A stretch of 64,000 bases of DNA from Aphrocallistes beatrix (lineage: Eukaryota; Porifera; Hexactinellida; Sceptrulophora; Aphrocallistidae), in contig OY725500.1 in assembly GCA_963281255.1 (NCBI GenBank), forward strand, positions 3,653,184 to 3,717,183, given 5' to 3'. Shown here piece by piece: positions 12,398 through 61,976 of the stretch (positions are counted from its first letter, which is position 1; the number at the start of each line of letters is the position of its first letter). Both the position numbers and the translations under genes were made by a program. The notes under the pieces are model-generated. The model was given only the letters and a program-made list of their open reading frames with translations. It did no database searches and was not told where the DNA came from.

Positions 12398-13397
12398 ATG
12401 GCTACTGCCAAGGTTAGTCGTGATACAGAATTTGAGGTTGTAATAATTCGCATAAAAAGTGAAATTGAGAATGGATTCAGAGAGTTGATTGCCCAGGTGA
12501 GGGAGAGGGAGAGAGAACTCCTCCAACAGCTAGAGGAGATCAGCACTGCTCATAGAAAGGAGAGAGAAAAGCAGGAACGATCTATTTCAGAGTTGGAGGT
12601 AATGCTGAAACTAACTCGAGAGAATATTAGTTCAGAAAGTCTTAAAGAGTTACAAGAAACAGTCGTTGAGAAGTTCAGAGAGAAGAGAAAGGAATTCGAT
12701 GCTCAGATCGATAGTAGAACCGTCGGCTTAGGTTGGGATGATAGTGTGATATTAGATCTCGTCCGTAAACTAGGCGTACTAACTGTTACGGGAATATATG
12801 GCACGAGTACATCAGTGGTTGATTACACTGGCAGGAAGAAACCGATCATGCATACTGGTACACGAGGTAATGCAGAGGCCCAATTCAACAATCCATGGGG
12901 CATATCAATACACCACAAGAGTGGGAACATTTATGTGGCAGACCAGTGGAACCACAGAGTCCAGGTGTTTGATAGCGAAAGTAATTTCCTGTTCTCGTTT
13001 GGCGCTATAATTGGGCGTGTAGGAATGGATTTGCCTCTCTACATCGCCGTCACGAATGATCAAGTCATCGTGAGTCAGTTTCGCATCGGATGTTTGCGAG
13101 TTTACGATTTAGGAGGAAATTTTATCGGACAGATCGGAAGTAGGGGCAACGGTAATGTACAGTTTAACAATCCTTTTGGAATTGCAGTTAGCGATTCGAG
13201 TGGCGATATTTATGTGTGTGATAATACTAACAATCGTGTACAAATCCTCTCGAAATATTTCTGTTACAAATCTGAAATTGTAGTTCGAGCTCCACGAGAT
13301 ATCAAACTAACTACTCAGCACATCAACGTGCTAACTGCACACAGCCCTTTCCTCTTGATCTTCAACTACGAACACTCACAGATTGTGCAGAATATGT
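12398..13397 (+). pseudogene. 5' part of a coiled-coil/NHL-repeat gene split by a MULE transposon
   Basis: ATG at 12398. Residues about 20-75 are strongly charged and helical (RERERELLQQLEEI), a predicted coiled coil. NHL beta-propeller repeats follow, for example QFNNPWGISI...GNIYVADQWNHRVQVF and QFNNPFGIAV...GDIYVCDNTNNRVQIL. The frame stays in phase to IVQNM at 13397, where the MULE begins; beyond that the open frame runs into transposon sequence. The remainder of the gene resumes at 18930. Joining across the single target site would give 409 residues, matching the 404- and 398-residue NHL genes at 37129 and 40132. The layout is like TRIM/NHL proteins without RING or B-box. As it stands the gene is interrupted, though the break is otherwise clean. 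Confidence 0.9.
13390..13397. repeat. Left 8-bp target-site duplication of the MULE (GAATATGT)
   Basis: GAATATGT directly precedes the element start GGTTGTTACT and is repeated exactly at 18922-18929 after the other end. Eight to nine base pairs is typical of Mutator-like elements. Confidence 0.95.
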
Positions 13398-13516
13398 GGT
13401 TGTTACTAAAATCCGGGACGGGACGGGACAGCGGCGGGATATTCCGGGTTTTGACTAAAATACAGGACACATTTGAAACTGTCATAATGGACCCACGTTT
13501 CACTGGATATTATATT
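13398..13516 (+). repeat. Left terminal inverted repeat of the MULE
   Basis: The first ~118 bp match the reverse complement of 18804-18921, with only a handful of differences in the inner half. It includes a GGGACGGGACGGGACAGCGG tract. Confidence 0.9.
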
Positions 13517-13872
13517 TACAGGTACTGTAGGTACGGCGTTTACCCTTCCACAAGCCTGGATCGGAGTGACTGGCTATGCGCCTGCATTAGTCACACACAA
13601 GTTAATTAATAACGATAATGTTATTTCTGCAATTCAATTGTGCATATAACTTGCAAGCCAATACTACTATGTGGGTGTTCAATCATTCTGAAGTGTAACT
13701 ATGATAAATCACTTAGTATGTTACTAATTAGCAGTATTTGACAGGATAACTTATGAAGTTCTCTCTATCTTTCAAAACCCTCAAGATATTTATATTACAT
13801 CTCCTCCTCAGAAGCCTAAAGCAGGCCAAGTGTTTCTATACAAAGCTGACAATCCAGGACTGGAAGGTATTC

Positions 13873-23222: not shown

Positions 23223-24418
23223 GTACCATTTTATCATATAATTAAACTCGAAAAAAGAATATAGCATTTGAAATGCGCGGACTTTCACTGTATAAAAGAG
23301 TATAATCGGTAGAGAAGTCAGGAAATTTTCTGTACTGAACAACTTTGTAGAATTAGAATTCTTTATAAAGGTGATCATTTGTAGGAATGATCGTCACTCA
23401 GAGGAATTATTTTCTGTGACTACTCGAAGCTCAGGTTTATTTTTATTGTATTATAATACCTTCAATGGTAATATCAATGCTATCTACGAACTATTAATTA
23501 TTTTTAAATTTCATTATAGGAAAAGCCACTCACAGACAGGATGGGAGTGTGTTTTCACATTCTTTTGTGAGACACAGTATGAAATATTGCGTCATTATCC
23601 TAGAACGTAAAAGCACACGCCATTCCCATCTGTTAGGGACTTTTATCATTTTATAATATGTCCACTTCAATAACTTTTTATTTGAAAGATATTAAAATTA
23701 AAAAATCCTGAATAGGAGGAGTGATGCTACCTACGCTACGTAATGTAACGTAGACTCAATTGGAACAACAGTATTAAAATGTCGACAAGACTTTTAGCAA
23801 ATTATCGAAATTTTGTTTTTTCTCGTGTGAAGTAAGCATGATGGGCGTTAGCATTATATCATCGAGACATTCATACTGAACATTTTATCAATCAAATATT
23901 GTTTTCTAGTTTCAAGCAAAAAGTGAAATCACTAAATGCTGCGTAATCATGCTGATTTAGTTTCTATTGAAAATTGTTGAGTTAAGTGCGAATCTACACA
24001 TATAGTCGCACCTTAACAAAACAATTAAAGTGATTATGTTCTAAACTCTGGACAAGGCCGGATCATCAGCACTCATTCCAATAGTATGCTTCCTAAATCA
24101 GAAATGTGTGTACATTTCAAAAGTTATCATATACAGTGAAACCCCCTATCACGCCCTTATGTACATGTAGGTTAGAGGTTAATTGTAATGGAAACATCGA
24201 TGATGGGGCTGTTTTGTAATGCCGTTATGTACAGGTTCTCGGTATGGCGTTATAGCAGCTTATACTGCATTTCTAAACAACTGACCCATAGTGAGATTCC
24301 CTATGCAAATAGAGCATTCCATTGAGACTATGCAATACACCTGAAGAGTCAATATAGTAGACTGATATTGCCACTAGCCACTTCCTTATTTATATCATTT
24401 TACATAGCGAATTCATTT
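23223..24418. other. Spacer, with one possible decayed TIR element
   Basis: No gene. About 24134-24270 starts ACAGTGAAACCCCCTATCAC and ends with GGCGTTATAGC...TACTGCA, a weak inverted relationship that may be an old Tigger-type MITE. A stretch near 23990-24085 (ACACATATAGTCGCA...GGCCGGA..CATCAGCACTCATT) resembles sequence inside the hAT element at about 53100-53200. Confidence 0.4.
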
Positions 24419-25363
24419 ATGGCTAGTGTCGAGGCATCCCTATCAAATCTCAAATCTGCATCACTCCCTATTGAGTACGGGACTGGAATCAGGTTTCAAA
24501 TAACACCGGAAGTGACTCAACCAGATAAACTTCTTCCTACTCATACTGTCAATGAAATATTCACTCTCGAAGATTGGAATGAATATATGCCACAAGGGTT
24601 CAAGCTCATAGGAATATGGAATAAAGAGTTCAAGAGAGAAAAATTCGTCACTATCTATAACAGAATACCTCATCCTTTTCTCAAAGCCTCTTGCGAAGCT
24701 TATACCAAGCATTACCCTCTGAAGATACGTCCTGATGACATCTGGTTAATGATTCTGCAAGCAGCTGGACTGCACATCAACATGAATAGCGAGGAACTGC
24801 GTTCTCAGTTCGTTAACTTTGAAGGTAAACAACTGCTTACAGTTGTGCGTCCTGAATTCGTACTTGACAGTCTGGATAATGACTGGGGCAGTGTAACACT
24901 AGAATTCTTGAAGAAGATTGGTGAGAATACTGTCGGTGATTTCAAGGAAATCTGCGAAGCAAGTTTTTCCACTTCCACTCCATTGGATCATGTGACTAGG
25001 TCTATGACTGTGATGAATGCATTGCGAAAGTGCTTTGCGTATAGGACATGTGGTTGTGGATTCCCATACATTGTGCTGGAAGGTAAGAAAGAGGATTGGA
25101 TACGATTGAAAGAGAGTACTACACGTCTGTTATCCAAGTTAGGTAAATTCGGAACAGAATGGTCTCAGTCTCTACTGCCTCTGCTCGACAAGATGACGGA
25201 ACCTTTTCATGGAATCGTGGACAGATTGTTCTGGAATTCCATGTATACACTGGTGCCACGTATATTATCTGGTATTGTCTGGGAACCAATGAGCGGATGG
25301 GTCAATATATTTTTCCCTTTTCTAAATCAGATTATAAAAAAAGATTATAATTTAAGTCAATAA
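24419..25363 (+). CDS. DUF4419-domain protein, C-terminally truncated copy
   Basis: 314 residues from the ATG at 24419 (MASVEASLSNLKSASLP). The open frame upstream of that starts at a TTG and is not used. Core motifs of the DUF4419 family: RPDDIWLMILQAAGLHINMN, then EELRSQFVNFEGK, and CGFPYIVLEGKKEDWIRLKE. The frame ends shortly after MSGWVNIFFPFLNQ, whereas the paralogue at 25654 continues about 90 more residues to a conserved GVNQDADGVISTQVGWYVL tail. This copy has lost its C-terminus and may be non-functional. The molecular function of DUF4419 is unknown. Confidence 0.8.
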   Translation: MASVEASLSNLKSASLPIEYGTGIRFQITPEVTQPDKLLPTHTVNEIFTLEDWNEYMPQGFKLIGIWNKEFKREKFVTIYNRIPHPFLKASCEAYTKHYPLKIRPDDIWLMILQAAGLHINMNSEELRSQFVNFEGKQLLTVVRPEFVLDSLDNDWGSVTLEFLKKIGENTVGDFKEICEASFSTSTPLDHVTRSMTVMNALRKCFAYRTCGCGFPYIVLEGKKEDWIRLKESTTRLLSKLGKFGTEWSQSLLPLLDKMTEPFHGIVDRLFWNSMYTLVPRILSGIVWEPMSGWVNIFFPFLNQIIKKDYNLSQ

Positions 25364-25653
25364 CCTGAATTTACAAGTAGAATCCATTGTTAATGCAATA
25401 TGAGCTCAAATAGTATAGCTTGAAAATTGATTAAACTAAAGCCAGAGGCGATCTATGATTTGTGGCCCGTAAGGCGGAGCCTAATTTTTAAAGTGGCTCG
25501 TAGATTTAAAAGTTTGAGCACCCCTGCAGTCTAGCCACTACCTGTCTAACGGCCATTTTTGATCAGTCCCTTGGATGACGTTGTAGAGAGGTTCGATTGT
25601 GTATAATTACGTATAATTATTTATTTTTTGGGATCTCAGACTTAATTAAGTAT
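25364..25653. other. Intergenic spacer between DUF4419 copies
   Basis: About 25440-25515 has words typical of decayed hAT ends (TTTGAGCACCCCTGCAG). A GGGATCTCAG acceptor-like site just before 25641 is followed in frame by DLIKY and the ATG at 25654. Similar lead-ins precede the other copies, so an upstream exon is possible. Confidence 0.4.
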
Positions 25654-26883
25654 ATGGCTAGTGTCAAGGCATCTCAGTCCACCCGAATCACCCGATCTAC
25701 TGCCAAAGCTGCATCACTCCCCGTTGAGTGCGAGACTGGTATCAGATTCCAAATAACTCCGGAAGTATCTCAACCAGATAAACTGCTTCTAACTCAAACT
25801 CTCAATGAAATATTCACTCCTGGAATTTGGAATAAGTATATGCCTCAAGGATTCAAACTCATTGGAATATGGGACAAAAATTTTATGAAATCAAAATTTG
25901 TTCATTCTTTTAACGGCGTACCTCATCCGTTTATCAGTGCTACCTACGAAGCTTACACCAAGCATTACCCTCTGAAGATACGTCCTGATGACATCTGGTT
26001 AACGATTCTGCAAGCAGCTGGACTGCACATCAACATGAATAGCGAGGAACTGCGTTCTCAGTTCGTTAACTTTGAAGGTAAACAACTACTTACAGTTGTG
26101 CGTCCTGAATTCGTACTTGACAGTCTGGATAATGACTGGGGCAGTGTAACACTTGAATTCTTGAAGAAGATTGGTGAGAATACTGTCGGTGATTTCAGGG
26201 AAATCTGCGAAACGACTTTTTCCACTTCCACTCCACTGGATCATGTGATTAGGTCTATTACTGTGATGAATGTAATGCAGAAATACTTTCACTATAGTTT
26301 ATTCGGTGGCTGCGGATTCCCATACATTGTGCTGGAAGGTAAGAAAGAGGATTGGATACGATTGAAAGAGAGCACTATACGTCTGTTATCCAAGTTAGGT
26401 AAATTCGGAACAGAATGGTCTCAGTCTCTACTGCCTCTGCTCGACAAGATGACGGAACCTTTTAATGGAGTCGTGGATAGTTTGTTCTGGAATTCCATGT
26501 ATACACTGGTGCCACGTACGATATCAATGTCTATTACCTGGGTTCCGATGAGTGGATGGATCAATATACTGTTCCCTTATCTTAAACAAAGTCGTAAATA
26601 CGATGACTATGTGCTTAATACATTTTGTGTTCCATATAATGAAGAGAAGGCTTTGGAGTTAGAAAAAAAAGGTGGTAAAGATATGGATAGTGATGCGCCT
26701 GAGTGGGATATGTTTCCTAACGGACGCCTTTTTGCTCCTGGTTCATTGGAAATTCCTCCTGATGAAAAGATCTACGACATCCGCTACTATTCTGGGTTTT
26801 TGGGTGTCAATCAAGATGCTGATGGAGTCATTTCTACTCAAGTAGGATGGTATGTCCTTAGAGACATGGAAATGCCCTCATAA
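25654..26883 (+). CDS. DUF4419-domain protein, full-length copy
   Basis: 409 residues from the ATG at 25654 (MASVKASQSTRITRSTAKAA). DUF4419 core: RPDDIWLTILQAAGLHINMN (about 110-129), EELRSQFVNF, GCGFPYIVLEGKKEDWIRLK (about 218-237) and a long helical segment with LLPLLDKMTEPFNG. The C-terminal third ends YYSGFLGVNQDADGVISTQV and WYVLRDMEMPS. No signal peptide or membrane segment. The central block is almost identical in DNA to the copies at 24419 and 56203, while the N- and C-terminal parts differ more. DUF4419 proteins are found in fungi and invertebrates and have no established function. Confidence 0.88.
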   Translation: MASVKASQSTRITRSTAKAASLPVECETGIRFQITPEVSQPDKLLLTQTLNEIFTPGIWNKYMPQGFKLIGIWDKNFMKSKFVHSFNGVPHPFISATYEAYTKHYPLKIRPDDIWLTILQAAGLHINMNSEELRSQFVNFEGKQLLTVVRPEFVLDSLDNDWGSVTLEFLKKIGENTVGDFREICETTFSTSTPLDHVIRSITVMNVMQKYFHYSLFGGCGFPYIVLEGKKEDWIRLKESTIRLLSKLGKFGTEWSQSLLPLLDKMTEPFNGVVDSLFWNSMYTLVPRTISMSITWVPMSGWINILFPYLKQSRKYDDYVLNTFCVPYNEEKALELEKKGGKDMDSDAPEWDMFPNGRLFAPGSLEIPPDEKIYDIRYYSGFLGVNQDADGVISTQVGWYVLRDMEMPS

Positions 26884-37128: not shown

Positions 37129-38343
37129 ATGGCAACTGCAGGAGTTACGAGAGAAAGTGATTTCGATAGAAAATTTCAAGATTTGGAGAAAGAAATATTT
37201 CAAACATTTCAAGAATTGTTTCAGGCTTTAGAGACACGTAAACAAGACTTGTTATCTCGTCTGTCAACACTCAAGTCAGCTCATGATAATAACATACAAC
37301 TAGATGAAGCAATCAAACAACTCCGAATAGTGAGAGATAATGCAGTTAGTGTGATGACGAGCAATCTACTAGGAGAAGATCTGGATCCGATAAAAGAAAG
37401 CTTCGATGCTAAAATACGTTCGAAAGAGGAAATGAAAGTTCCGAATGTACTTGTAAATGTGAATCTGATTGAATTCCGTTGTCTATCCGAACAAATCCTG
37501 AAAGGAATCGAAGAAACAGATCTCATTGAGTTACTTCCTGAGTACGTAGGGAGGGAAAATCCAATTCTTAAAAAATGTTCTCAAGGTCATAAGAATGGAC
37601 AGTTTATAAATCCTGGAGGAATATCGATTGATAGAAGCACTAACGAGGTTTATGTAGTGGATAAGAGCAACAGTCGTATTCAAGTCATGAGTATTAACGG
37701 AGATTATTTGCGATCATTCACAAATGAATACTTGAAAGCACCTTATGGAATTTGTTTGTCAGACAATGAAGTATTCGTGACTGATATAGAAACTTTTTTG
37801 CTTAAGTTCCATAAATCTGGAAAGTTCTTGAAGAAAGTTGGTTCAAGAGGTACTACACCAGGATGCTTCAGTGGTATAAAAGGTCTGTGTTATGAGGAAC
37901 GTTTGGTTTATGTCTGCGACAATAGCATGCAACAGATTAACATATTCGATTCAGAACTTAAATACTTTAAATATTTTGCTTACGGAGAAATCCAAACTCC
38001 ATTTGACATCACTATCCATGCTAACTCTATCTACATATTATCTGTAGATCAGAATGTGATTTATTACTATAACAAGGATTGTAGCCTTCAGAACACAATC
38101 AAGCTTAGCGGACAGAAAGTACCAATGACTACTGCCTACTTTTTCACAATGGATTCCAGAGGTAACTTTCTTATTTCGAACGCATATTCATCAGAAATTC
38201 GTATATTCTCTCCTGATGGAGTTCTCAAGCACTCATTAGGAAGAGGACATCTTAAAATTTTAAATGGCATCGCACTAGACAACAGTGGATCTATTGTATG
38301 TGTTAATTCCGGTGTAAATAATGCCTGCTTTCAGAAATACTGA
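37129..38343 (+). CDS. Coiled-coil/NHL-repeat protein, tandem copy 1
   Basis: 404 residues from the ATG at 37129 (MATAGVTRESDFDRKFQDLE). Residues about 10-90 are helical and charged (FQELFQALETRKQDLLSRLS), a predicted coiled coil, as in TRIM-type proteins but with no RING or B-box. From about 165 NHL blades follow: INPGGISIDRSTNEVYVVDK then SNSRIQVM; APYGICLSDNEVFVTD; GIKGLCYEERLVYVCD; and, near the C-terminus, MDSRGNFLISN...IRIFSPDGVLKHSLG. These should form a beta-propeller for protein or RNA binding. Full length relative to its paralogue at 40132 and to the 409 residues of the split 12.4-kb gene. Single exon. Function unknown. Confidence 0.88.
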   Translation: MATAGVTRESDFDRKFQDLEKEIFQTFQELFQALETRKQDLLSRLSTLKSAHDNNIQLDEAIKQLRIVRDNAVSVMTSNLLGEDLDPIKESFDAKIRSKEEMKVPNVLVNVNLIEFRCLSEQILKGIEETDLIELLPEYVGRENPILKKCSQGHKNGQFINPGGISIDRSTNEVYVVDKSNSRIQVMSINGDYLRSFTNEYLKAPYGICLSDNEVFVTDIETFLLKFHKSGKFLKKVGSRGTTPGCFSGIKGLCYEERLVYVCDNSMQQINIFDSELKYFKYFAYGEIQTPFDITIHANSIYILSVDQNVIYYYNKDCSLQNTIKLSGQKVPMTTAYFFTMDSRGNFLISNAYSSEIRIFSPDGVLKHSLGRGHLKILNGIALDNSGSIVCVNSGVNNACFQKY

Positions 38344-40131: not shown

Positions 40132-41328
40132 ATGGCAACTGCAGGAGTTACGAGAGAAAGTGATTTCGATAGAAAGTTTCAAGATTTGGAGATAGAAATA
40201 TTTCGAACATTTCAAGAATTGTTTCAAGCTTTAGAGACACGTAAACAAGACTTGTTATCTCGTCTGTCAACACTCAAGTCAGCTCATGATAATAACATAC
40301 AACTAGATGAAGCAATCAAACAACTCCGAATAGTGAGAGATAATGCAGCTAGTGTGATGACGAGCAATCTACTAGGAGAAGATCTGGAAGGCTTTGATAT
40401 TAAAATACGTTCGAAAGAGGAAATGAAAGTTCCGAATGTAAATGTGAATCTGATTGAATTTCGTTGTCAATCCAAACAAATCCTGAAAGGAATCGAAGAA
40501 ACAGATCTCATTGAGTTACTTCCTGAGTACGTAGGGAGGGAAAATCCAATTCTTAAAAAGTGTTCTCAAGGTCATAAGAATGGACAGTTTATGAATCCGT
40601 TAGGAATATCGATTGATAGAAACACTAACGAGGTTTATGTAGTGGATACAAGCAACAATCGTATTCAAGTTATGAGTATTACTTGCGATCATTTGCGATC
40701 ATTAACACATGAATACTTGAATGCACCTCATAGAATTTGTTTGTCAGACAATGAAGTATTCGTGACTGATCAGGGAACATTTTTGCTTAAGTTCCATAAA
40801 TCTGGAAAGTTCTTGAAGAAAGTCGGTTCAAGAGGTACTATACCAGGATCCTTTAGTGCTATAAAAGGAATGTGTTATGAGGAAGGTTTGGTTTATGTGT
40901 GTGATGGTGGCATACAACTGATTAACATATTCGATTCTGAACTTAAATACCTGAAAAATTTTGCCTACGGAGAAATAAATAATCCAAATGACATCACTAT
41001 CCATGCTAACTCTATCTACATATTATCTGTAGATCAGAATGTAATTTATTACTATAACAAGGATTGTAGCCTTCAGAACACAATCAAGCTTAGCGGACAG
41101 AAAGTACCAATGACGAATGCCTACTTTTTCACAATGGATTCCAGAGGTAACTTTCTTATTTCAAACCACGATCCATCAGAAATTCGTATATTCTCTCCTG
41201 ATGGAGTTCTCAAGCACTCATTGGGAAGAGGACATCTCAAGTTCTTAAAGGGTATAGCACTAGATAACAGTGGATCTATTATATGTGTTAACTTCGGTGT
41301 AGAGAATGACTGCTTTCAGAAATACTGA
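40132..41328 (+). CDS. Coiled-coil/NHL-repeat protein, tandem copy 2
   Basis: 398 residues. Very similar to the 37129 gene over the coiled coil and the last ~90 residues, with more changes in the middle blades and a short deletion (LGEDLEGFD against LGEDLDPIKESFD). NHL-type blades: MNPLGISIDRNTNEVYVVDT then SNNRIQVM; APHRICLSDNEVFVTDQG; AIKGMCYEEGLVYVCDGG. The 5' flank just before the ATG (ATATAGGATCAATGGC) and the 3' flank also match copy 1, so the duplication included flanks. Intact and single exon. Function unknown. Confidence 0.88.
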   Translation: MATAGVTRESDFDRKFQDLEIEIFRTFQELFQALETRKQDLLSRLSTLKSAHDNNIQLDEAIKQLRIVRDNAASVMTSNLLGEDLEGFDIKIRSKEEMKVPNVNVNLIEFRCQSKQILKGIEETDLIELLPEYVGRENPILKKCSQGHKNGQFMNPLGISIDRNTNEVYVVDTSNNRIQVMSITCDHLRSLTHEYLNAPHRICLSDNEVFVTDQGTFLLKFHKSGKFLKKVGSRGTIPGSFSAIKGMCYEEGLVYVCDGGIQLINIFDSELKYLKNFAYGEINNPNDITIHANSIYILSVDQNVIYYYNKDCSLQNTIKLSGQKVPMTNAYFFTMDSRGNFLISNHDPSEIRIFSPDGVLKHSLGRGHLKFLKGIALDNSGSIICVNFGVENDCFQKY

Positions 41329-42896: not shown

Positions 42897-43610
42897 CTAT
42901 TTTAACGTGACATCAAGATAAGCATATTCCATCACTTGACAAGCTGTTTTAGCTCTTATAAATTTATCATGCGACACAGTCAATTCTGTCTCTCCTTTAC
43001 GAGTATCGGTTAGCTTCCAATTAATTCGTGCAGTACAGTTGGTTAAGATAATATTTTTCCAATTACTAGATGGAATAAGAAGGTAACAAGCCGGACATAT
43101 CATATCTTCAATAACTCTCCGAATTGAGCAATATCCATTATATTCGCTACACATTCCTTTTCTAACAAAAACAGAATGCGAATTCCTGAAAGATTCGCAA
43201 TTGCTGTTTTCACATTTTGCCTCAAGACTAAGCCCCTTGTAGACAATCATATAATCGGGAGCTTGGGCAGAAAAATCTAGTGTCTCAAAACATTCTTGTT
43301 GGGTTACATCAAAAAAGTTAATATTATCAAATCCAGTACTAGGACCTGGTTTATTCGTAGCTCCTCCCCTAATCGGCACGTGTAGAGCGAGGTTAGTGAC
43401 TGGAGTGGTGCCACAGAACTCGTGCAGAGGAGTGGAGTCAGAGAGCTGAGTAGCAGCATGGTAGAGAGTCTGAGAGAGAACAGGAATGCCTGTGAGAGTT
43501 TCTAGTTTGTGTTTGATGCTTAGAACGCAGTCAGAAGGAGACACACCCACGTACACACTCCCCCCTGTACCTCTAGACAGCTCTATGCGTAGGACTCGCT
43601 TCTGTCGCAT
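42897..43610 (-). CDS. Ubiquitin-like domain fused to cysteine-rich domain (UBL copy 1)
   Basis: 237 residues. Residues 1-83 resemble ubiquitin: VLRIEL, VSPSDCVLSIKHKLETLTGI, QTLYHAATQLSDSTPLHEF and a C-terminal LHVPIRGG that matches the RGG end of mature ubiquitin. After Gly-Gly comes a variable linker (ATNKPGPSTG), then a cysteine-rich domain: YMIVYKGLSLEAKCENSNC, GYCSIRRVIEDMICPAC, NWKNIILTNC. The paired Cys suggest zinc binding. I recall similar cysteine-rich domains beside ubiquitin-like domains in protists and rotifers, but cannot check. The Gly-Gly followed by more residues is what a deubiquitinase would need to release a free modifier. First of five related genes, all on the minus strand. 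Single exon. Confidence 0.82.
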   Translation of the reverse strand: MRQKRVLRIELSRGTGGSVYVGVSPSDCVLSIKHKLETLTGIPVLSQTLYHAATQLSDSTPLHEFCGTTPVTNLALHVPIRGGATNKPGPSTGFDNINFFDVTQQECFETLDFSAQAPDYMIVYKGLSLEAKCENSNCESFRNSHSVFVRKGMCSEYNGYCSIRRVIEDMICPACYLLIPSSNWKNIILTNCTARINWKLTDTRKGETELTVSHDKFIRAKTACQVMEYAYLDVTLK

Positions 43611-44126
43611 TGTTATTTGTTAAGCTAATTTGAAATTAGTAAGAATTGTATTTATTTTATACATACTCCCGTTAAGATAATTTGAACCAAAATATATTCT
43701 ATTAAGGATCACAAAATTGCATTTGTTTATTTTGGAGTACAAAATATTTCAACTCTTTGCAGAGCCGGCGTCAGCAAGGTGTCCTGGGTTTCCAGAAATA
43801 ACCACCTGGTCCCAATTTTATTTTTTAGAAAGGATTTGTATTGAATCAAGTTCGCTTATTATAAAGTATCTCTATTATGAACATATTTTTTGGTCTCCTG
43901 GTTGTTCACAATAAGTGACCCTGACTCTATTATTAAATAACTTCATTAATATTTATTATAGAGAAATCATCTGTATATCTAGAAAAATTTTTCATTATGG
44001 CAATTATATATAGCTAAAGCAAAATACAGTACAACATAGTATATATAACTAGCTACCGTAAAGTTAACATAGATAAGGGGATATTTTCAAGTCAGTTTTG
44101 AAGCTTAGCTTTTGGTTATTTTCATT
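43611..44126. other. Intergenic spacer in the UBL cluster
   Basis: AT-rich. It holds the promoter of the minus-strand gene ending at 42897 and the 3' flank of the next. No repeat recognised. Confidence 0.4.
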
Positions 44127-44837
44127 TTATTTCATCTTAACATCAAGATAAGCGTATTCCTTTAATTCGCATGTTGTTTTGGCTCTTGTATATCTATCTT
44201 TTCCTACGATGAATTCAGTACTTCCACAGGATGTTTGGTCAGATAATAACCATTCAATAGTTACTGCACAGTCGGTGAAAACAATATTTTTCCAATTGCA
44301 TGCAGGAATCGTGAAATTACATGAGGGACAATTCATTTCTTCAATTTCTCTCCGAATTGAGCAATATCCGCAAGTTTCTGCATTAAACATACCTTTCCGA
44401 ACATATACACAATGCGAATTCTCAACAGATATGCATTCTGGATTATTACATTTGGCTTCAATATTCAATCCCTTATGCACTATCCTATAATCTGGAGCAT
44501 GCGCATCAAATTTTAAAGATTCAAAACAATCTTCGTTTGTGACATCTTGAAAAACTAAAGGGGTGGACATTGTTGGTTTATTTGTAGCTCCTCCCCTAAT
44601 CGGCACGTGTAGAGAGAGGTTAGTGACTGGAGTGGTGCCACAGAACTCGTGCAGAGGAGTGGAGTCAGAGAGCTGAGTAGCAGCATGGTAGAGAGTCTGA
44701 GAGAGAACAGGAATGCCTGTGAGAGTTTCTAGTTTGTGTTTGATGCTTAGAACACAGTCAGAAGGAGACACACCCACGTACACACTCCCCCCTGTACCTC
44801 TAGACAGCTCTATGCGTAGTACTCGCTTCTGTCGCAT
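44127..44837 (-). CDS. Ubiquitin-like domain fused to cysteine-rich domain (UBL copy 2)
   Basis: 236 residues from the ATG at 44837; an upstream in-frame TTG at 44849 is not needed. The first 83 residues are identical to copy 1 apart from one position (TNLSLHV against TNLALHV). The linker differs (ATNKPTMSTPL). The cysteine-rich part keeps the pattern KGLNIEAKCNNPEC, FNAETCGYCSIRREIEEMNC, SCNFTIP, NWKNIVFTDC but is clearly diverged. Same strand and arrangement as its neighbours. Role unknown; a ubiquitin-like precursor or an adaptor are both possible. Confidence 0.82.
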   Translation of the reverse strand: MRQKRVLRIELSRGTGGSVYVGVSPSDCVLSIKHKLETLTGIPVLSQTLYHAATQLSDSTPLHEFCGTTPVTNLSLHVPIRGGATNKPTMSTPLVFQDVTNEDCFESLKFDAHAPDYRIVHKGLNIEAKCNNPECISVENSHCVYVRKGMFNAETCGYCSIRREIEEMNCPSCNFTIPACNWKNIVFTDCAVTIEWLLSDQTSCGSTEFIVGKDRYTRAKTTCELKEYAYLDVKMK

Positions 44838-45573
44838 TGTAAAGTGCAAGTATTGCTAATTAATTTCTAATTTTTTAGAAAAGAATTAACAGCTTAATTA
44901 AAATACACTGTCCACTCTTGATAATCTAAAAAATACTATCCATTTAACTTTTCACAGCTCCATAAGCATCACTTATCTTTTTCTCACACACCAATCAGAG
45001 TAATGTATGCAACCTTAGTAAATTTTTAACGACTTTTTGTATATTAGTCCTAACCATTCCTCATCCAGAGTCTACGCCCCTGCTTATTTAATCAATAAAA
45101 CTATTCCTAATCTCCACCTAGCTACTATGCCCCCCATCAGGAATTTTTTAACAGCTTATTTCGACCGATAGAGAGGTAATGCGGCGAAGTTCTTGTTACT
45201 CTGACTCGAACAAGTTTCTCTCCTGGATGCTATACTATTTATACTATCAAACCTGGTAGTAAGTGAAATTTACTGCTGATTCCAGGAGGTATAAGATAAG
45301 ACCCCGACTAAGCATTCGAGATTCTAAGCATTAAAACGCGCTTTCGTCTATAATAGGACAAAACAGCAAAAGTTCCTAAACTAGTCTGGATTCCCAAAAA
45401 TATGCATATATATGTACGTACTTGTAATTTGATGTGAGGACTAATAAAATGCCAGGTAATTCCTAAATCTTTCAAAAAGTGGTGCAGCCAGATCGTTTCT
45501 GTACATTTTTACATTTCATTGTTCTACATTAATTATTTATATACGAAACATAAAATACATAGAACAATTCAAA
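44838..45573. other. Intergenic spacer in the UBL cluster
   Basis: AT-rich. No gene or clear repeat seen. Confidence 0.4.
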
Positions 45574-46374
45574 TCAATTGATAAATTGCAATTCTAAATA
45601 TCTTACATGTCCACTTAAATAACTGCTACATTTCGCAAATGTAATCATATTGTTGGATGCTTTCTTTTCAATCTTACCACGTTTTCCGTCATTTAACTTA
45701 TAACGTATTTCAAATTTGCATTCGAAGAAACAGAATCCAAATGAGTTATCCGCTCTTATTTGTTGCTTGCAAATGGGGCAATTGACCTTGTGGATTTCTC
45801 TATCGAATGAACAATATCCGTTACGTTCTGGATAGAGACCGTTTGGACACATAACATCTTTCAAGAAGAATTTACATTCAACGTTTTTACAAACAGCGAC
45901 TATGTTTAGTCCAGGTTGCACTTGGAGATGAGTATCAGTCCAATTAACTTCACTACAGCCATACATATTTGGGTTTATCATGTTAGTACCTGAGAGGATT
46001 GACATTACACAGCCTATGTTGCTCACATTCCTGTCTTCAGAATTTTGCATAGAGTTATTTGGTTCTTCATTTAATTTTATTGAATACGAGTTGATATTTT
46101 CCATTGAAATTTTATTTTCTACATCCGAATCCGATTTGAATTGACTATCATTGTCTATTTCTTTTGGTTTGTAAAAATGCATATCATCTGCTTTACTTTT
46201 AACTGTGAATGCCTCACAATCCAAATTTGTTTGAGTACCATTAACGTCTCGATTTGAGGGGTTTATTAGGGTAGTAAATCTGTCTCGACAATATTCCTTG
46301 AAACATGTAATACTATATCCCCTTTTTGCTCCAAAAGGACATATATAGAAAATAAGGCTGATGAAACCACCCAT
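45574..46374 (-). CDS. Cysteine-rich domain protein with N-myristoylation-type start (Myr copy 1)
   Basis: 266 residues, ATG at 46374. The C-terminal ~115 residues match the cysteine-rich domain of the neighbouring UBL genes: LQVQPGLNIVAVCKNVEC, GYCSFDREIHKVNCPICK, SFGFCFFECKFEIRYKL. The ubiquitin-like domain is absent. Instead it begins MGGFIS, which fits the N-myristoylation pattern (Gly2, Ser6), followed by a hydrophobic/cysteine-containing stretch and a ~120-residue polar, acidic, probably disordered linker. By inference the domain is tethered to a membrane here rather than fused to UBL. Single exon. Confidence 0.78.
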   Translation of the reverse strand: MGGFISLIFYICPFGAKRGYSITCFKEYCRDRFTTLINPSNRDVNGTQTNLDCEAFTVKSKADDMHFYKPKEIDNDSQFKSDSDVENKISMENINSYSIKLNEEPNNSMQNSEDRNVSNIGCVMSILSGTNMINPNMYGCSEVNWTDTHLQVQPGLNIVAVCKNVECKFFLKDVMCPNGLYPERNGYCSFDREIHKVNCPICKQQIRADNSFGFCFFECKFEIRYKLNDGKRGKIEKKASNNMITFAKCSSYLSGHVRYLELQFIN

Positions 46375-47989
46375 ACTAAACTTCTGTGCTAAAACTAGTT
46401 GCTATGTAGCTAAATTTCAGACAAATAATATTGTTACCATAATAACCTTTGCATTTTGATGAAATTTGGAGTGAAGGTCGAGTTTTTTCTAAATATAAAT
46501 GACTAATATTATGTGCGATGGAATGCATGGCTTAGCACTCATACCCAAGGCCATCTCTGCAAAATATATAAGGAGGATTATGACAGCCTTGATATAATAC
46601 TAATTATTAATACCTAATAGATCAATAATATTGCTACTTATTGTGTTTAAGTTTATAAAGGCGAAAAATAAAGGATGTCAGCTAGAAGGTTCGATTTACT
46701 CATGAGTGTCCTCCTTTGATTGATTTTAAAATATTTTATACTGGCTATCCATACTTTCACTTCTTTTACGTAATTATGCACCAATAATCAATCTTTAACT
46801 TGTGTATTGAGGAACATATTGCATTTTAAGCTGCACTGCATTATTTAGAATACATTATAGGTGAAAATAGAGATGAATATTAAAACAATTAATGAAATTT
46901 ATTAAAATATATGACATACACAGATAATAACTTACGTATGGTTCTTTTATATGCTTTCCAATCTATTGTATATTTGCACTGCTGTGAATTTCTAAATTAA
47001 TGCAATGAATTAAATTCAGACCTTTTCAACAACGTAAGCACTTGGCGAAAGGTTGGAATCTTAGCCCAAAACTTCATGTAGATATATTATTGGCTGGATC
47101 GCTGTTATACTAGAACTCAACAAATGAGAAAAGAGAGATAGAGTTGTGTAACTGCATAATGAGAGAATCTAATAGAGAATAGAATTGTCTTTAAGAGTTT
47201 GTGACTGAGGACACTGTTAAGAGGACGCTCACATACTTTTTCCTTCCTCCATACTTAGTATATGAATATCTTATGGGTAGGGTCGATATTTTTCAGTTTA
47301 GTTCCTAGCTAATTGGGCAAGAATTGGATAAACAAATAATGAGCTATTCATTGATATTCAAGGAAAGAATTGGTCAACTTAGATTAAATTGTGTATTTTT
47401 TTGTTCAAGAAATAAAATTTATCTTGAGGAACTTAGCATATTTAACAATTTACCAGTCAAATTTTTATTTTTTATGCTGCAAGACAAAAAATATACTCCT
47501 TAAAATACAATACTATGTGATTTTATTCCATGTTACTTCATTGGGATTATGAGTATCCCAACGTCACTCCATTAAGACAGTTGCATTATAATAATTTTAA
47601 ATGCTTCTAATTTGCTTTCCCTAATGTCTGTTCTTTACTTGACCTGACTTTAAAATCATTTTCAGATATTCTGAGTTAACAACATTTTGATCCAAATAGT
47701 CAGAAAATGAACGAAATATATGTATTATTGACCTAAAATGACAATAAATAGTTGAAATTACTATTTTGGATTTATTCAAACCATTTCACTTAATATTTTG
47801 TGAATACGGCACGGAATCATAAGTGAAGGGAATGATCGAGTGGGTACATTTTCGCCTGCCCGTGCTCCTACACTTATGGAAGTTCTACCATACGTATAAT
47901 TTTACAACATATGAATATAAAAGTAAATAATTCTATAATTTAGGGGAACAAGCTACTTTATTAATGAAATGTATTTACTATATTCAAAA
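46375..47989. other. Long spacer in the UBL cluster
   Basis: No open frame of interest. 47820-47900 carries TACACTTATGGAAGTTCTAC, the complement of the end motif near 39930, so an orphan Tigger-type end. Otherwise AT-rich DNA without recognised features. Confidence 0.45.
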
Positions 47990-48733
47990 TTATACTGGGT
48001 GGAGGTTCACCTTTATTTCAAAGCTAGCGTAGTTCTTCTTCCATTGATTGCTTTTAGCAATTGCATATTTATTACTTGGTACATGTATTTCATATTCACC
48101 ACATGACTGTTCGTCACCTGATACCCATTCAATTGTAGCCCTGCAGTTGGTGAAAACGATATTTTCCCAATTGTCTGAAGGTATTTTACTGAAGCAAACG
48201 GGACATTTCATTTTCGTCTTTTCTTCTCCCATGTCATATTTCTGTTTTGATATTCCTTTTCTAATATAAACAGAATGTGATTCTTTTACGGATTCACATT
48301 CATTATTGTTACATCTAGCTTTAAAATTCATTCCCTTGTAAACTATCATATATTCTGGAGCTGTAGGTGCTAGTTTTTCTGTTTTAAAGCATTTGTTCGT
48401 CGTAATATCGTAGAACTTTATCGGATCAAAAGGGCTGTTCACCTGAGAGCGACTTTCTACCCTCGGCATATTGAAGGAGCATCCTCCTCCCCTGATAGGC
48501 ACGTGTAGAGAGAGGTTAGTGACTGGAGTGGTGCCACAGAACTCGTGCAGAGGAGTGGAGTCAGAGAGCTGAGTAGCAGCATGGTAGAGAGTCTGTGAGA
48601 GAACAGGAATGCCTGTGAGAGTTTCTAGTTTGTGTTTGATGCTGAGAACGCAGTCAGAAGGAGACACACCCACGTACACACTCCCCCCTGTACCTCTAGA
48701 CAGCTCTATGCGTAGGACTCGCTTCTGTCGCAT
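47990..48733 (-). CDS. Ubiquitin-like domain fused to cysteine-rich domain (UBL copy 3)
   Basis: 247 residues. Residues 1-83 match UBL copy 2 exactly, ending LHVPIRGG. The linker is different (GCSFNMPRVESRSQVNS). The cysteine-rich part reads YMIVYKGMNFKARCNNNEC, KMKCPVCFSKIPSDNWENIV and FTNCRATIEW. It lacks the GYCSIRR segment of copies 1 and 2 (here QKYDMGEEKT), so one presumed metal ligand differs. The DNA of the UBL block is almost identical to the other two copies and distinctly GC-richer than the rest of the gene. Confidence 0.82.
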   Translation of the reverse strand: MRQKRVLRIELSRGTGGSVYVGVSPSDCVLSIKHKLETLTGIPVLSQTLYHAATQLSDSTPLHEFCGTTPVTNLSLHVPIRGGGCSFNMPRVESRSQVNSPFDPIKFYDITTNKCFKTEKLAPTAPEYMIVYKGMNFKARCNNNECESVKESHSVYIRKGISKQKYDMGEEKTKMKCPVCFSKIPSDNWENIVFTNCRATIEWVSGDEQSCGEYEIHVPSNKYAIAKSNQWKKNYASFEIKVNLHPV

Positions 48734-49127
48734 TATCGATCCTTTTTTATATGCTAGTTATTTGTATCTTAAATTTGTTATACCACTTGTTTAATATAGT
48801 TGATCATCAATGTACTAAGAGCTCAATGGCCATTTTATATGCCTCACACTCCGTGAATCCCCGTCTAGTTTATCATTTCTTTTTATTTTGAGAAGATATT
48901 AATTTTATGGAAAGTTTAAATCAGAGTTAAAACCGATTGAACCGAATACCAGTATTCATGAATAGTTCCTTGACCGAATACGAATGCTGATATTAATTCC
49001 CAACCAATATCAACTATTTGCTAAATAGTATTTGGTCTAGCCGAATGTTGAACTACGTATTCGGTTGCAACCTTATTTTAAACACAAAATTAGAAATATA
49101 TAAATAAATAATTTTAAAGAAATAGAA
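48734..49127. other. Intergenic spacer in the UBL cluster
   Basis: AT-rich. About 48920-49060 contains several CGAATA/ATTCGG words (ACCGAATACCAGTATTC, GACCGAATACGAATGC), perhaps a short repeat. No gene. Confidence 0.4.
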
Positions 49128-49811
49128 TCAATTTTGGAATTGAATGTCTAAGTATTGCAAATGACCATTCAAATTATTGCTGCATTTAGCAAATAAAAGC
49201 TTATTATTAGATGCTTTCATTTTCATCTTATCGCTGGTGTCGTCATCTAACATATAACTCATTTCAAATTTGCATTCGTAAAAACAGAATCCAAATGAGT
49301 TGTCTGCTCTAATTCTCTGCTTGCATATGGGACATTTAACCTTATGAATTTCTACATCGAAGGAACAGTATCCATTTTCATCTGGGTAGAGACCCTTTGG
49401 ACATAAAATATCTTTTAAGTATAATTTACATTCAACATTTTTACACACAGCGAGTATGTTTAGTCCGTGTTGCACCTGGAGGTGACTATCAGTCCAATTA
49501 ACTTCACAGCTTCCATACTTGTGACCGTTGATTATGTTAGTGGCTGCTATCATTGAAGTTAAATCTTTTAAGGTGAAAACTTTAATTTTTATATCGTCCT
49601 CTGAAAATTCGTTAACTTCCAACATGGGAGAAGTATCATTGGACTCAAGATTTAAACTTATTATTTCGGAATAACTGATGGAATCATCAGCATTTTTTGA
49701 AAAATTTTCCTTTTCGAGCTTTTGATACTTCACTTGCATATCAGTATTATTTTTACGCCTTTTAAATCCGAAAGATCTGCTTTTAAAATAACTGCAGTTG
49801 AGACAACCCAT
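49128..49811 (-). CDS. Cysteine-rich domain protein with myristoyl/palmitoyl-type start (Myr copy 2)
   Basis: 227 residues, ATG at 49811. Starts MGCLNCSYF followed by basic FGFKRRKN. Gly2 with Cys3 and Cys6 and nearby basic residues is the classic dual-acylation layout of membrane-anchored signalling proteins. A polar acidic linker follows, then the shared domain: LQVQHGLNILAVCKNVEC, GYCSFDVEIHKVKCPICK, SFGFCFYECKFEMSYML. Over that domain it is very close to Myr copy 1, so these two are sister genes even though UBL copy 3 lies between them. Single exon. Confidence 0.78.
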   Translation of the reverse strand: MGCLNCSYFKSRSFGFKRRKNNTDMQVKYQKLEKENFSKNADDSISYSEIISLNLESNDTSPMLEVNEFSEDDIKIKVFTLKDLTSMIAATNIINGHKYGSCEVNWTDSHLQVQHGLNILAVCKNVECKLYLKDILCPKGLYPDENGYCSFDVEIHKVKCPICKQRIRADNSFGFCFYECKFEMSYMLDDDTSDKMKMKASNNKLLFAKCSNNLNGHLQYLDIQFQN

Positions 49812-56202: not shown

Positions 56203-57465
56203 ATGAATGGTTTGATAACGATACTCTGGTTACAGAAGCTAATCGGAATTTTGTTTATTGCCAGTGTTGAGGCATCCATTTCCGATTTCAAATCTGCATC
56301 ACTCCCCGGTGAGTGCGAGACTGGTATCAGATTCCAAGTAACAAATGTAACTCAACCAGATAAACTGTTTCCAACTAAAACTCTCGATGAGATATTTACA
56401 CCTGAAGATTGGAATAAGTATATGCCACAAGGATTCAAACTCATTGGAATATGGGACAAAAGCTTCATGAAATCCAAATTTGTTAGTACTTATAACAACC
56501 TACCTCATCCGTTTATCAGTGCTACCTTTAATGCTTACTCCAAGCATTACCCTCTGAAGATACGTCCTGATGACATCTGGTTAACGATTCTGCAAGCAGC
56601 TGGACTGCACATCAACATGAATAGCGAGGAACTGCGTTCTCAGTTCGTTAACTTTAAAGATAAAAAACTACTTGCAGTTGTGCGTGAAGATTTCATATTT
56701 GATAGTCTGGATAATGACTGGGGCAGTGTAACACTAGAATTCTTGAAGAAGATTGGTGAGAATACTGTCGGTGATTTCAAGGAAATCTGCGAAACGACTT
56801 TTTCCACTTCCACTCCACTGGATCATGTGACTAGGTCTATGACTGTGATGAATGTACTGCAAAAATACTTCGACTTTCATTTGAGCGGTGGTTGTGGATT
56901 CCCATACATTATGCTGGAAGGTAAGAAAGAGGATTGGATACGATTGAAAGAGAGTACTACACGTCTGTTATCCAAGTTAGGTAAATTCGGAACAGAATGG
57001 TCTCAGTCTCTACTGCCTCTGCTTGATAAGATGACAGAACCTTTTAATGGAGTCGTGGACAGTTTGTTCTGGAATTCCATGTATACACTGGTGCCACGTA
57101 TATATTCTAGTATTGTCTGGGAACCAATGAGTGGATGGATCAACATACTTTTTCCTTATCTAAACCCAACAAGTGATAGTGGCGATGAGTATGTGCTTAA
57201 TAAGTTTTGTGTTCCATATGATGAAGAGAAGGCTTTGGAGTTAGAAAAAAAAGACGGTAAAGATATGGATAATGATGCGCCCGATTGGAAGATGTTCCCT
57301 AACGGACGTGTCTTTGCTCCTGGTACAATGGAATATCTTCCAGATCCTAAGATCTACAACATCCGATACTATTCTGGGTTTTTGGGTGTCAATCAAGATG
57401 CTGATGGAGTCATTTCTACTCAAGTAGGATGGTATGTCCTTAGAGACCTGGAAATTCCCTCCTAA
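56203..57465 (+). CDS. DUF4419-domain protein, full-length copy with altered start
   Basis: 420 residues. Core: RPDDIWLTILQAAGLHINMN, EELRSQFVNFKDKK, GCGFPYIMLEGKKEDWIRLK, tail YYSGFLGVNQDADGVISTQV and WYVLRDLEIPS. Where the other copies have ATGGCTAGTGTC, this one has ATTGCCAGTGTT, so the usual start Met is lost. Translation would begin at an upstream ATG (56203), adding the hydrophobic MNGLITILWLQKLIGILF, which could act as a signal or anchor. Alternatively GGTTACAG before AAGCTAATC is a splice acceptor for an upstream exon. Otherwise intact and close to the 25654 gene. Confidence 0.85.
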   Translation: MNGLITILWLQKLIGILFIASVEASISDFKSASLPGECETGIRFQVTNVTQPDKLFPTKTLDEIFTPEDWNKYMPQGFKLIGIWDKSFMKSKFVSTYNNLPHPFISATFNAYSKHYPLKIRPDDIWLTILQAAGLHINMNSEELRSQFVNFKDKKLLAVVREDFIFDSLDNDWGSVTLEFLKKIGENTVGDFKEICETTFSTSTPLDHVTRSMTVMNVLQKYFDFHLSGGCGFPYIMLEGKKEDWIRLKESTTRLLSKLGKFGTEWSQSLLPLLDKMTEPFNGVVDSLFWNSMYTLVPRIYSSIVWEPMSGWINILFPYLNPTSDSGDEYVLNKFCVPYDEEKALELEKKDGKDMDNDAPDWKMFPNGRVFAPGTMEYLPDPKIYNIRYYSGFLGVNQDADGVISTQVGWYVLRDLEIPS

Positions 57466-59687: not shown

Positions 59688-60134
59688 ATGTCTCGAGGAC
59701 TTGACTCCTACTCCTCTCAATTCGTATATCGCGTGCTAAGACCCAATGAAGATCTAAATCAAGATCTCAAATGCTCCGCTTCTCATTCTAGTCTCACCAT
59801 CGACCAGTTTATTGAAACAGGACTGCAATCCCCCTCCAAGTACATCTCCACCACCGCCAGCCTGAGATGCGCCCACAAATGGATGAAGAAAGCAGATTCA
59901 TTTACGTCTGACAAGTACGGGAATAAGCGGAGTATCATTGCTAAGGTTAATCTGAATTTGATCAAAAGTAAGTACAAAAAACTAGCGAGTAGCGCTTATG
60001 ATTTTACTAATATTAAAAACCGCGAACACTTTCTTAAAAATGCTAAGCAGATGAAATTTGCAAAAGCTTATGAAGAGATAGTATTCGAAAACTTCATTCC
60101 ATCCGAGGCTCTAAGCCTTGCCTTCAAGAAATGA
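59688..60134 (+). CDS. DUF7587-like protein (possible ADP-ribosyltransferase-fold), copy 1
   Basis: 148 residues, ATG at 59688. Motifs in order: FVYRVLRPNED near the start, TIDQFIETGL, SKYISTTASLRCAHKWM, YGNKRSIIAKVNLNLI and AYEEIVFENFIPSEALSLAF at the end. The YRV...ISTT...EIVF...IP order matches what I know as DUF7587 and loosely recalls the Arg, Ser-Thr and Glu positions of Arg-Ser-Glu type ADP-ribosyltransferases. That enzymatic reading is inference and unproven. No signal peptide. Near neighbour of the copy at 61470, same strand. Confidence 0.7.
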   Translation: MSRGLDSYSSQFVYRVLRPNEDLNQDLKCSASHSSLTIDQFIETGLQSPSKYISTTASLRCAHKWMKKADSFTSDKYGNKRSIIAKVNLNLIKSKYKKLASSAYDFTNIKNREHFLKNAKQMKFAKAYEEIVFENFIPSEALSLAFKK

Positions 60135-61469: not shown

Positions 61470-61976
61470 ATGTCGCAAGGACTTGACAACTGTACGTCTC
61501 CATATGTGTATCGCGTGCTAAGACCCAATGAAACTCTGAATCAAGATCTCAAATGTTCTGACGCGAATTCAGACATGACTATTGACCAGTTTATTGAAAC
61601 AGGACTAAAGTTACCCTCGAAATTCATTTCCACGACTACCAGCAAGAAGTGTGCTCGCAGATGGATGTGGAGAGCCGATACCTTTACCTCTAAACAATAT
61701 GGAAACAAGAGAAGCATCATTGTCAAGATTAATATAAACTTGATCAAAAATAAGTATAAGAATTTAGCAAATTCTGCGTATGACTTAACTGAGAAAAAGA
61801 ATCGTGAACATTTTCTTAAAAACTTAAAGCAGAAGAAGTTTGCAATCGCCTATAAAGAGATTGTTTTCCAAAATATGATACCGTCTGAAGCTATAAGCCT
61901 CGTCTACAAGAAAGGTTCATCAGTTCCTTCGAGTAATTCATCTGAACCACACAACATCCATCAAGTTCTAATTTAA
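61470..61976 (+). CDS. DUF7587-like protein (possible ADP-ribosyltransferase-fold), copy 2
   Basis: 168 residues, ATG at 61470. Same motif order as copy 1: YVYRVLRPNETLNQDLKCSD, TIDQFIETGL, SKFISTTTSKKCARRWM, YGNKRSIIVKININLI, REHFLKNLKQKKFAIAYKEI, VFQNMIPSEAISLVYKK. It has an extra Ser/Pro-rich tail of about 20 residues (SSVPSSNSSEPHNIHQVLI). The conserved Arg (YRV), Ser-Thr-Thr and Glu (KEIVF) are all present. A tandem duplicate 1.3 kb from copy 1 with a repeat element inserted between them. Function unknown. Confidence 0.7.
   Translation: MSQGLDNCTSPYVYRVLRPNETLNQDLKCSDANSDMTIDQFIETGLKLPSKFISTTTSKKCARRWMWRADTFTSKQYGNKRSIIVKININLIKNKYKNLANSAYDLTEKKNREHFLKNLKQKKFAIAYKEIVFQNMIPSEAISLVYKKGSSVPSSNSSEPHNIHQVLI

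Follow-up and report, generated by a model that had tools for sequence, protein, structure and literature searches.

What does a cysteine-rich domain do at the end of five neighbouring genes, when in three of them it follows a ubiquitin-like domain (UBL) and in the other two a start of quite another kind? The question is raised by a locus of the hexactinellid sponge Aphrocallistes beatrix (assembly GCA_963281255.1), at 42897..49811 of a stretch of 64,000 nucleotides of contig OY725500.1 (positions 3,653,184 to 3,717,183, forward strand), which as a whole we call the window. A first-pass annotation of this DNA had described five minus-strand genes with a common C-terminal domain (CTD), three carrying a UBL that ends in Arg-Gly-Gly, taken by inference to be cleavable, and two carrying an acylation-type start, and had put the layout forward as a candidate for something new. 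We followed up this description in the genome (100.5 megabases in 28 contigs, cited here as C plus a number, the window lying on C14) and in prokaryotic sequences. What we found suggests a so far undescribed arm of ubiquitin-type signalling, with defence as one possible role, and we take the CTD for an adaptor belonging to the ubiquitin system that has here been joined to a UBL precursor peculiar to this lineage.

Five genes with one C-terminal domain

The five genes are real, with their open reading frames (ORFs) confirmed on the minus strand, and homology searches found one homologous CTD in all of them, including the two that begin with Met-Gly (MG). Genes 1, 2 and 4 consist of a UBL, a linker and a CTD, and in each the UBL is a 249-bp cassette running from the ATG through the Gly-Gly codons. 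Gene 1 (42897..43610) has its UBL at 43362-43610 and its CTD at 42900-43316; gene 2 (44127..44837) has them at 44589-44837 and 44130-44552, its start being taken as the ATG at 44837, 12 bases inside the listed TTG start; gene 4 (47990..48733) has them at 48485-48733 and 47993-48415. All three UBLs are above the cut-off of PF00240, and the assignments are completed by CTD alignments for genes 1 and 4 and by structure models for gene 2. Gene 3 (45574..46374) starts with MGGFIS (46357-46374) and gene 5 (49128..49811) with MGCLNC (49794-49811) together with a basic KRRK; in both, by CTD homology and a motif check on the ORF, a long divergent N-terminal stretch leads to the CTD (45577-45957 and 49131-49511).

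The CTD is about 140 residues long and keeps the paired-cysteine pattern that had been described for it: C-x4-C (with one longer gap), CPxC and a fifth cysteine are invariant in 7/7 rows, namely the five window proteins and two from the chlamydial locus L077. In an alignment of 36 CTDs the cysteines C60, C63 and C80 are present in all 36 and C22 in 35; of these counts only that of C80 is free of bias, since motifs containing the first four cysteines served to cut and display the rows. The pattern is that of a putative zinc-binding, zinc-ribbon-like domain. A convincing match for the CTD was found neither in Pfam, NCBIfam and PADLOC nor in the PDB: the CTDs of the five window proteins passed no Pfam cut-off, and the best Pfam expectation value (E) over 14 single CTDs was 0.0044 (cut-offs shown for one member only). 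CTD arrays, of which one piece from C18 and one from C2 were scanned, pass the Trm112p cut-off of 22 bits when the scores along the array are added up (29.1 and 27.9 bits), while no single stretch within them does. The predicted CTD structure matched two giant-virus proteins (E 3e-8 and 8e-7; template modelling (TM) score 0.73), the 'Ring and ubiquitin domain protein' A0A3G4ZQ93 of Barrevirus and the 'Ubiquitin' S4W648 of Pandoravirus salinus, both known here by this structural match and by name, and not by sequence.

A family spread over the sponge genome

Two CTD queries found 52 and 62 places in the genome with an E limit of 10, which admits weak matches; the search scores only its best candidates, and classes were sorted by reading the ORFs. 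There are 14 UBL-CTD genes on five contigs (three on C14, four on C4, five on C20, one each on C15 and C12). The same type of CTD stands in three UBL-less genes of C4, and a long unrelated start precedes a CTD in the two window genes, in six of C4 (one of them being the front part of the fusion described below), in two of C12 and in a broken one of C7. C3 carries five short CTD-only genes, two of them ending in CVIL, and long arrays of CTD copies occur on C2, C10 and C18, one ORF reaching 1271 amino acids. Many CTD copies per ORF, as at C18:41274-45086 (L072) and also on C2 and C10, would make a possible multivalent scaffold. The fusion ORF C4:6063380-6064576 (L009) joins an MG-class CTD, the last part of a UBL ending in SGG and a second CTD, as if two neighbours had been fused by deletion. 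In a tree of 36 CTDs, window genes 3 and 5 group with the first CTD of this ORF (support 100/98) and five chlamydial rows form one group (96/90), with many deeper forks left open. None of the ORFs read beside the animal clusters is a partner E1, E2 or ligase gene, no systematic search for these having been made.

A diverged UBL that keeps its Gly-Gly end

Profile matches and the structure model of gene 2 agree that residues 1-83 of genes 1, 2 and 4 form one and the same ubiquitin-fold (beta-grasp) domain, ending in Arg-Gly-Gly, so the proposed fold stands. The model's best structural match is ISG15, tied with ubiquitin. This UBL is not ubiquitin itself, with which it shares 32% identity in this genome and from which its tail differs (HVPIRGG, not LRLRGG). 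When it was searched against the genome, 8 matches came back: the three window genes, four genes on C4 that are 84-87% identical to it and, at 32% and E 1e-3, the ubiquitin-L40 gene at C3:2880227. Eleven UBL-CTD proteins lie outside the window; of the six that were compared with Pfam, four pass the ubiquitin cut-off.

In 14/14 sponge UBL-CTD genes a Gly-Gly ends the UBL and an extension follows, which is the layout of a type I precursor. Among nine diverged UBLs with a mean pairwise identity of 25% (the window and C4 clusters represented by one each; C20c and C20d 73% alike), no column is invariant apart from one Leu and the two Gly. This count calls for caution, since the more diverged UBLs were spotted in part visually, by someone who could see the Gly-Gly. 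As so little else is invariant in this set, the Gly-Gly looks functional. As for the earlier idea of a cleavable precursor, the conserved Gly-Gly is observed, and cleavage itself is plausible from its presence in every gene and its invariance among diverged UBLs. The three UBL-less C4 paralogues start with M-A[CS]GQSTGFQPF, and the related UBL gene C4c, which groups with them in the CTD tree (99/99), reads RGG and then ASRQTTGFQPF; since these starts align just after the RGG of C4c, the edge of the module coincides with the expected cleavage site.

Uniform UBLs on divergent CTDs

Within the window cluster, the UBL cassettes differ by 2-6 synonymous and 0-1 non-synonymous changes (synonymous divergence, dS, 0.03-0.095), whereas the CTDs of the same genes have a dS of at least 1.4. 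The C4 cluster behaves alike, its UBL dS being 0.015-0.047 and its CTD dS saturated except in the young pair C4a/C4b (0.30), and between the two clusters UBL dS is 0.17-0.27 against a CTD dS of at least 1.04. Altogether CTD dS is above 1 in 20/21 gene pairs, C4a/C4b being the exception, with 13/21 pairs exceeding the range of the formula. The cassette has sharp edges on both sides: identity within each cluster, followed in 30-base steps, rises from 0.2-0.4 before the ATG to 0.9-1.0 inside and falls back about 30 bases past the Gly-Gly codons, save in C4a/C4b, which stay alike further downstream. GC content, at 0.51-0.53, is higher in the cassette than upstream of it (0.28-0.34) or in the CTD (0.35-0.43). 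Gene conversion within clusters is the simplest reading of the uniform UBL. Several precursors carry one and the same modifier, a situation known from ubiquitin families, and such uniformity would profit a modifier that has to be identical from several genes. Ubiquitin genes are described as evolving in concert in PMC6332867.

Relatives in chlamydiae

Scanning the prokaryote collection for the pattern yielded 4 matches, 3 of them chlamydial: Parachlamydiaceae MGR_bin34 (L077), Parachlamydiaceae SSA5 (L078) and a Neptunochlamydia (L079). By profile search (E 1e-4) the CTD is present in 7/232 Chlamydiota genomes, the carriers being of the kind that lives as symbionts of protists. L077 encodes a UBL (PF00240, E 3e-12) with a CTD and also an ankyrin-patatin-CTD protein, and the UBL of the UBL-CTD protein of L085 is above the Pfam cut-off. 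L078 and L079 have broken frames, with UBL-like pieces before the CTD that were read by eye and are unscored, the one of L079 ending in LVLRLRGGG. In L089 two ubiquitins ending in LRGG (E 1e-45) precede the CTD, and the gene directly after it on the same strand joins a U-box (PF04564, E 2e-10) to a degenerate CTD (profile E 3e-8). PARP-CTD proteins are above cut-off in L087 and L093 and assigned by likeness in L091 (which sits at the end of its contig and has a stop within the matched part). Beside the PARP-CTD gene of L093 lies a CTD protein (L093:1843-2451) that ends in the CaaX-like CIIV, which could serve the prenylation enzymes of a eukaryotic host. On a Ruminococcus albus plasmid, NC_014824.1:388219-388401 is annotated as 'ubiquitin family protein' (weak match, E 0.04).

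The bacterial domain leads back to the same animal genes. With the L089 CTD as query, tblastn found 26 places in the sponge genome at E <= 1 (22 at E < 0.001, the best 1e-12), every one of them in a contig region where CTD genes had already been located. In the window it matched gene 3 (1e-7), gene 2 (6e-7), gene 4 (2e-5) and gene 5 (9e-4); gene 1 was absent among the matches at E <= 1.

Neighbourhood of the cluster

The neighbours of the cluster in the window (TOP3B, Vps26, an ABC transporter, a C-type lectin, NHL and DUF4419 proteins) indicate a eukaryote. Two adjacent NHL-repeat proteins, close copies of each other, lie beside the cluster (37129-38343 and 40132-41328), and an ORF resembling them is found at 12398-13609. 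Three proteins are of the DUF4419 type (24368-25363, 25597-26883 and 56203-57465; the middle one at E 1e-63, the others by likeness), DUF4419 being a family of unknown function. Two small paralogues (59688-60134 and 61470-61976) have a weak match to DUF7587 below cut-off and give the impression, no firmer than that, of small ADP-ribosyltransferase-type proteins.

Discussion

We tentatively favour, at a little less than an even chance, the reading that the UBL proteins act in ubiquitin-type signalling as precursors whose common domain is an adaptor or a targeting module; the CTD would provide co-targeting, and the UBL would be cleaved off and conjugated or used as a signal. The UBL genes would encode precursors of a ubiquitin-fold modifier, with the UBL up to the Gly-Gly first and the zinc-ribbon-like CTD after it. 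The CTD would be a shared targeting or docking module, attached to a modifier (the UBL), to an enzyme (U-box, PARP or patatin, in the bacterial relatives), possibly to a membrane anchor, or to further CTDs in arrays, and it would unite such parts at a common target or with one another. A deubiquitinase-type protease would then cut after the Gly-Gly, and the freed UBL would be conjugated at the target or act as a signal, so that a near-identical UBL on different CTDs would amount to one signal with many addresses. The best hint of such a mechanism is the neighbouring pair of ubiquitin-CTD and U-box-CTD genes in L089, since modifier precursor and ligase would then share the docking domain. That the clusters are lineage-specific, that the CTDs change fast and that intracellular bacteria and, judged by fold, giant viruses have homologues all suggests a part in conflicts with microbes inside cells.

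Several findings weigh against this reading. The two intact chlamydial proteins with a single UBL that were read (L077, L085) lack the Gly-Gly, so release of their UBL is improbable. A Pro stands at the equivalent of ubiquitin Arg72 in the window cluster and the C4 cluster, a position that varies in the other UBLs; Arg72 is important for the ubiquitin E1, and the normal E1 may therefore not use these UBLs. The UBLs of C12 (24.6) and C20a (22.6) fall just under the Pfam ubiquitin cut-off of 25.4, the CTD model of gene 2 is of middling confidence (predicted local distance difference test, pLDDT, 68; predicted TM score, pTM, 0.59), and the defence role is read from the distribution of the genes. 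The lipid-anchor class is weakened as well. Genes 3 and 5 do fit an N-myristoylation pattern of the type of PROSITE PS00008, but the acylation-type start is not kept in their closest relative outside the window, which starts with MDCNQS, and because of this their acylation appears possible but young or accidental. The pattern fits 0 of the other 31 of 33 sponge ORFs that were checked, the reading of three of the 33 (C4b, C15 and the C18 array) having begun at a residue that precedes their likely start. Membrane tails in other family members are suggestive, though thin evidence: two chlamydial CTD proteins without a Pfam match have a hydrophobic tail (hydropathy 2.18 in L092, clear, and 1.52 in L086, borderline), although a stretch inside the globular CTD of C15 reaches 2.30 on the same scale, and two sponge genes on C3 end in CVIL and one chlamydial gene in CIIV. 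The claim that one domain goes with either a UBL or a membrane anchor may thus survive in a looser form.

Could the UBL instead be permanent? It would then stay uncut and bind parts of the ubiquitin pathway (ligase, E2, proteasome or ubiquitin receptors) while the CTD binds a target, and the Gly-Gly would be a relic of ubiquitin kept by gene conversion, or a flexible hinge. An adaptor of this kind agrees with L077 and L085, which keep UBL and CTD together without Gly-Gly, and with the Pro of the window genes, and we regard it as possible, if rather unlikely; against it, the Gly-Gly survives where nearly all other positions of the UBL have changed, including in the C12, C15 and C20 genes, which do not belong to either group of near-identical UBLs, and L089 keeps LRGG after its two ubiquitins. 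That same divergence of the C20, C12 and C15 UBLs, unlike the true ubiquitin of this genome, speaks against the UBL being mainly an N-terminal aid to folding or expression, as in ubiquitin-L40 and ubiquitin-S27a, which would be removed from a working CTD protein and have no role of its own, and many CTD proteins (the MG type, the C3 group, the arrays) do without a UBL. With a layout equal to that of the ubiquitin-L40 gene of this genome in its favour, and a chaperone role of fused ubiquitin mentioned in PMC11354881, this explanation seems to us decidedly improbable.

The strong divergence of CTDs within clusters and their occurrence in chlamydiae and giant viruses would also fit a CTD that senses microbes or ligands, in a family of intracellular immune receptors with UBL, U-box, PARP and anchors as interchangeable outputs and with bacterial and viral copies as decoys or hijacked effectors. 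A trypsin-like and NACHT protein (L085:1982-3376), an immune-type architecture in a bacterium, does follow one chlamydial UBL-CTD gene; we give this possibility very little credence. The precursor reading can also be taken further, to an undescribed branch of ubiquitin-like conjugation. Clustered genes would then make one modifier on different adaptors; at membranes surrounding intracellular microbes the CTD would bring the precursor together with partners that are anchored, carry a ligase or consist of many CTDs, and giant viruses as well as bacteria living in amoebae would have copied or donated the same parts. In this full form we think the reading unlikely.

What matters more broadly is that the CTD, with no Pfam model found for it, occurs together with ubiquitin, UBLs, U-box, PARP and possibly membrane anchors, and that it does so in an animal, in bacteria and, as far as the fold shows, in giant viruses. 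It would offer a direct handle on unexplored ubiquitin signalling and on host-microbe conflict, and the kept Gly-Gly together with the homogenised UBL predicts that many precursors release a second modifier specific to the lineage.

How new is this layout? The first-pass annotation knew of no described system like it, and our literature search, with most subscription journals outside its scope, found no recognisable description of the CTD; the layout is, however, not confined to the cluster, since UBL-CTD or ubiquitin-CTD proteins also occur in protist-symbiont chlamydiae and the giant-virus proteins named for ubiquitin or RING and ubiquitin match the fold. These viral proteins, A0A3G4ZQ93 and S4W648, resemble the system in matching the CTD model and carry ubiquitin or RING by name only. 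In the sections at hand, PMC4209131 describes RING/U-box, F-box and BTB families in amoeba-symbiont chlamydiae, a similar setting; its main text does not contain 'ubiquitin-like' or 'ubiquitin domain', and those sections name no CTD-like domain. The algal ubiquitin fusions in the accessible sections of PMC6332867 likewise join ubiquitin to zinc RING fingers and unnamed partners and show concerted evolution, but no partner with the cysteine pattern of the CTD is described there.

Another comparison is with the secondary ubiquitin-like modifiers such as ISG15, which share the fold and a diverged UBL that keeps its Gly-Gly. ISG15 is a tandem UBL, unlike the single UBL with a CTD of about 140 residues found here. 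Ubiquitin-L40 and ubiquitin-S27a, finally, also have a ubiquitin fold ending in Gly-Gly, a cysteine-containing C-terminal partner and several precursors that share one modifier, whereas in the sponge the UBL is only 32% identical to ubiquitin, the partner is not ribosomal, and that partner also exists in many forms without a UBL.

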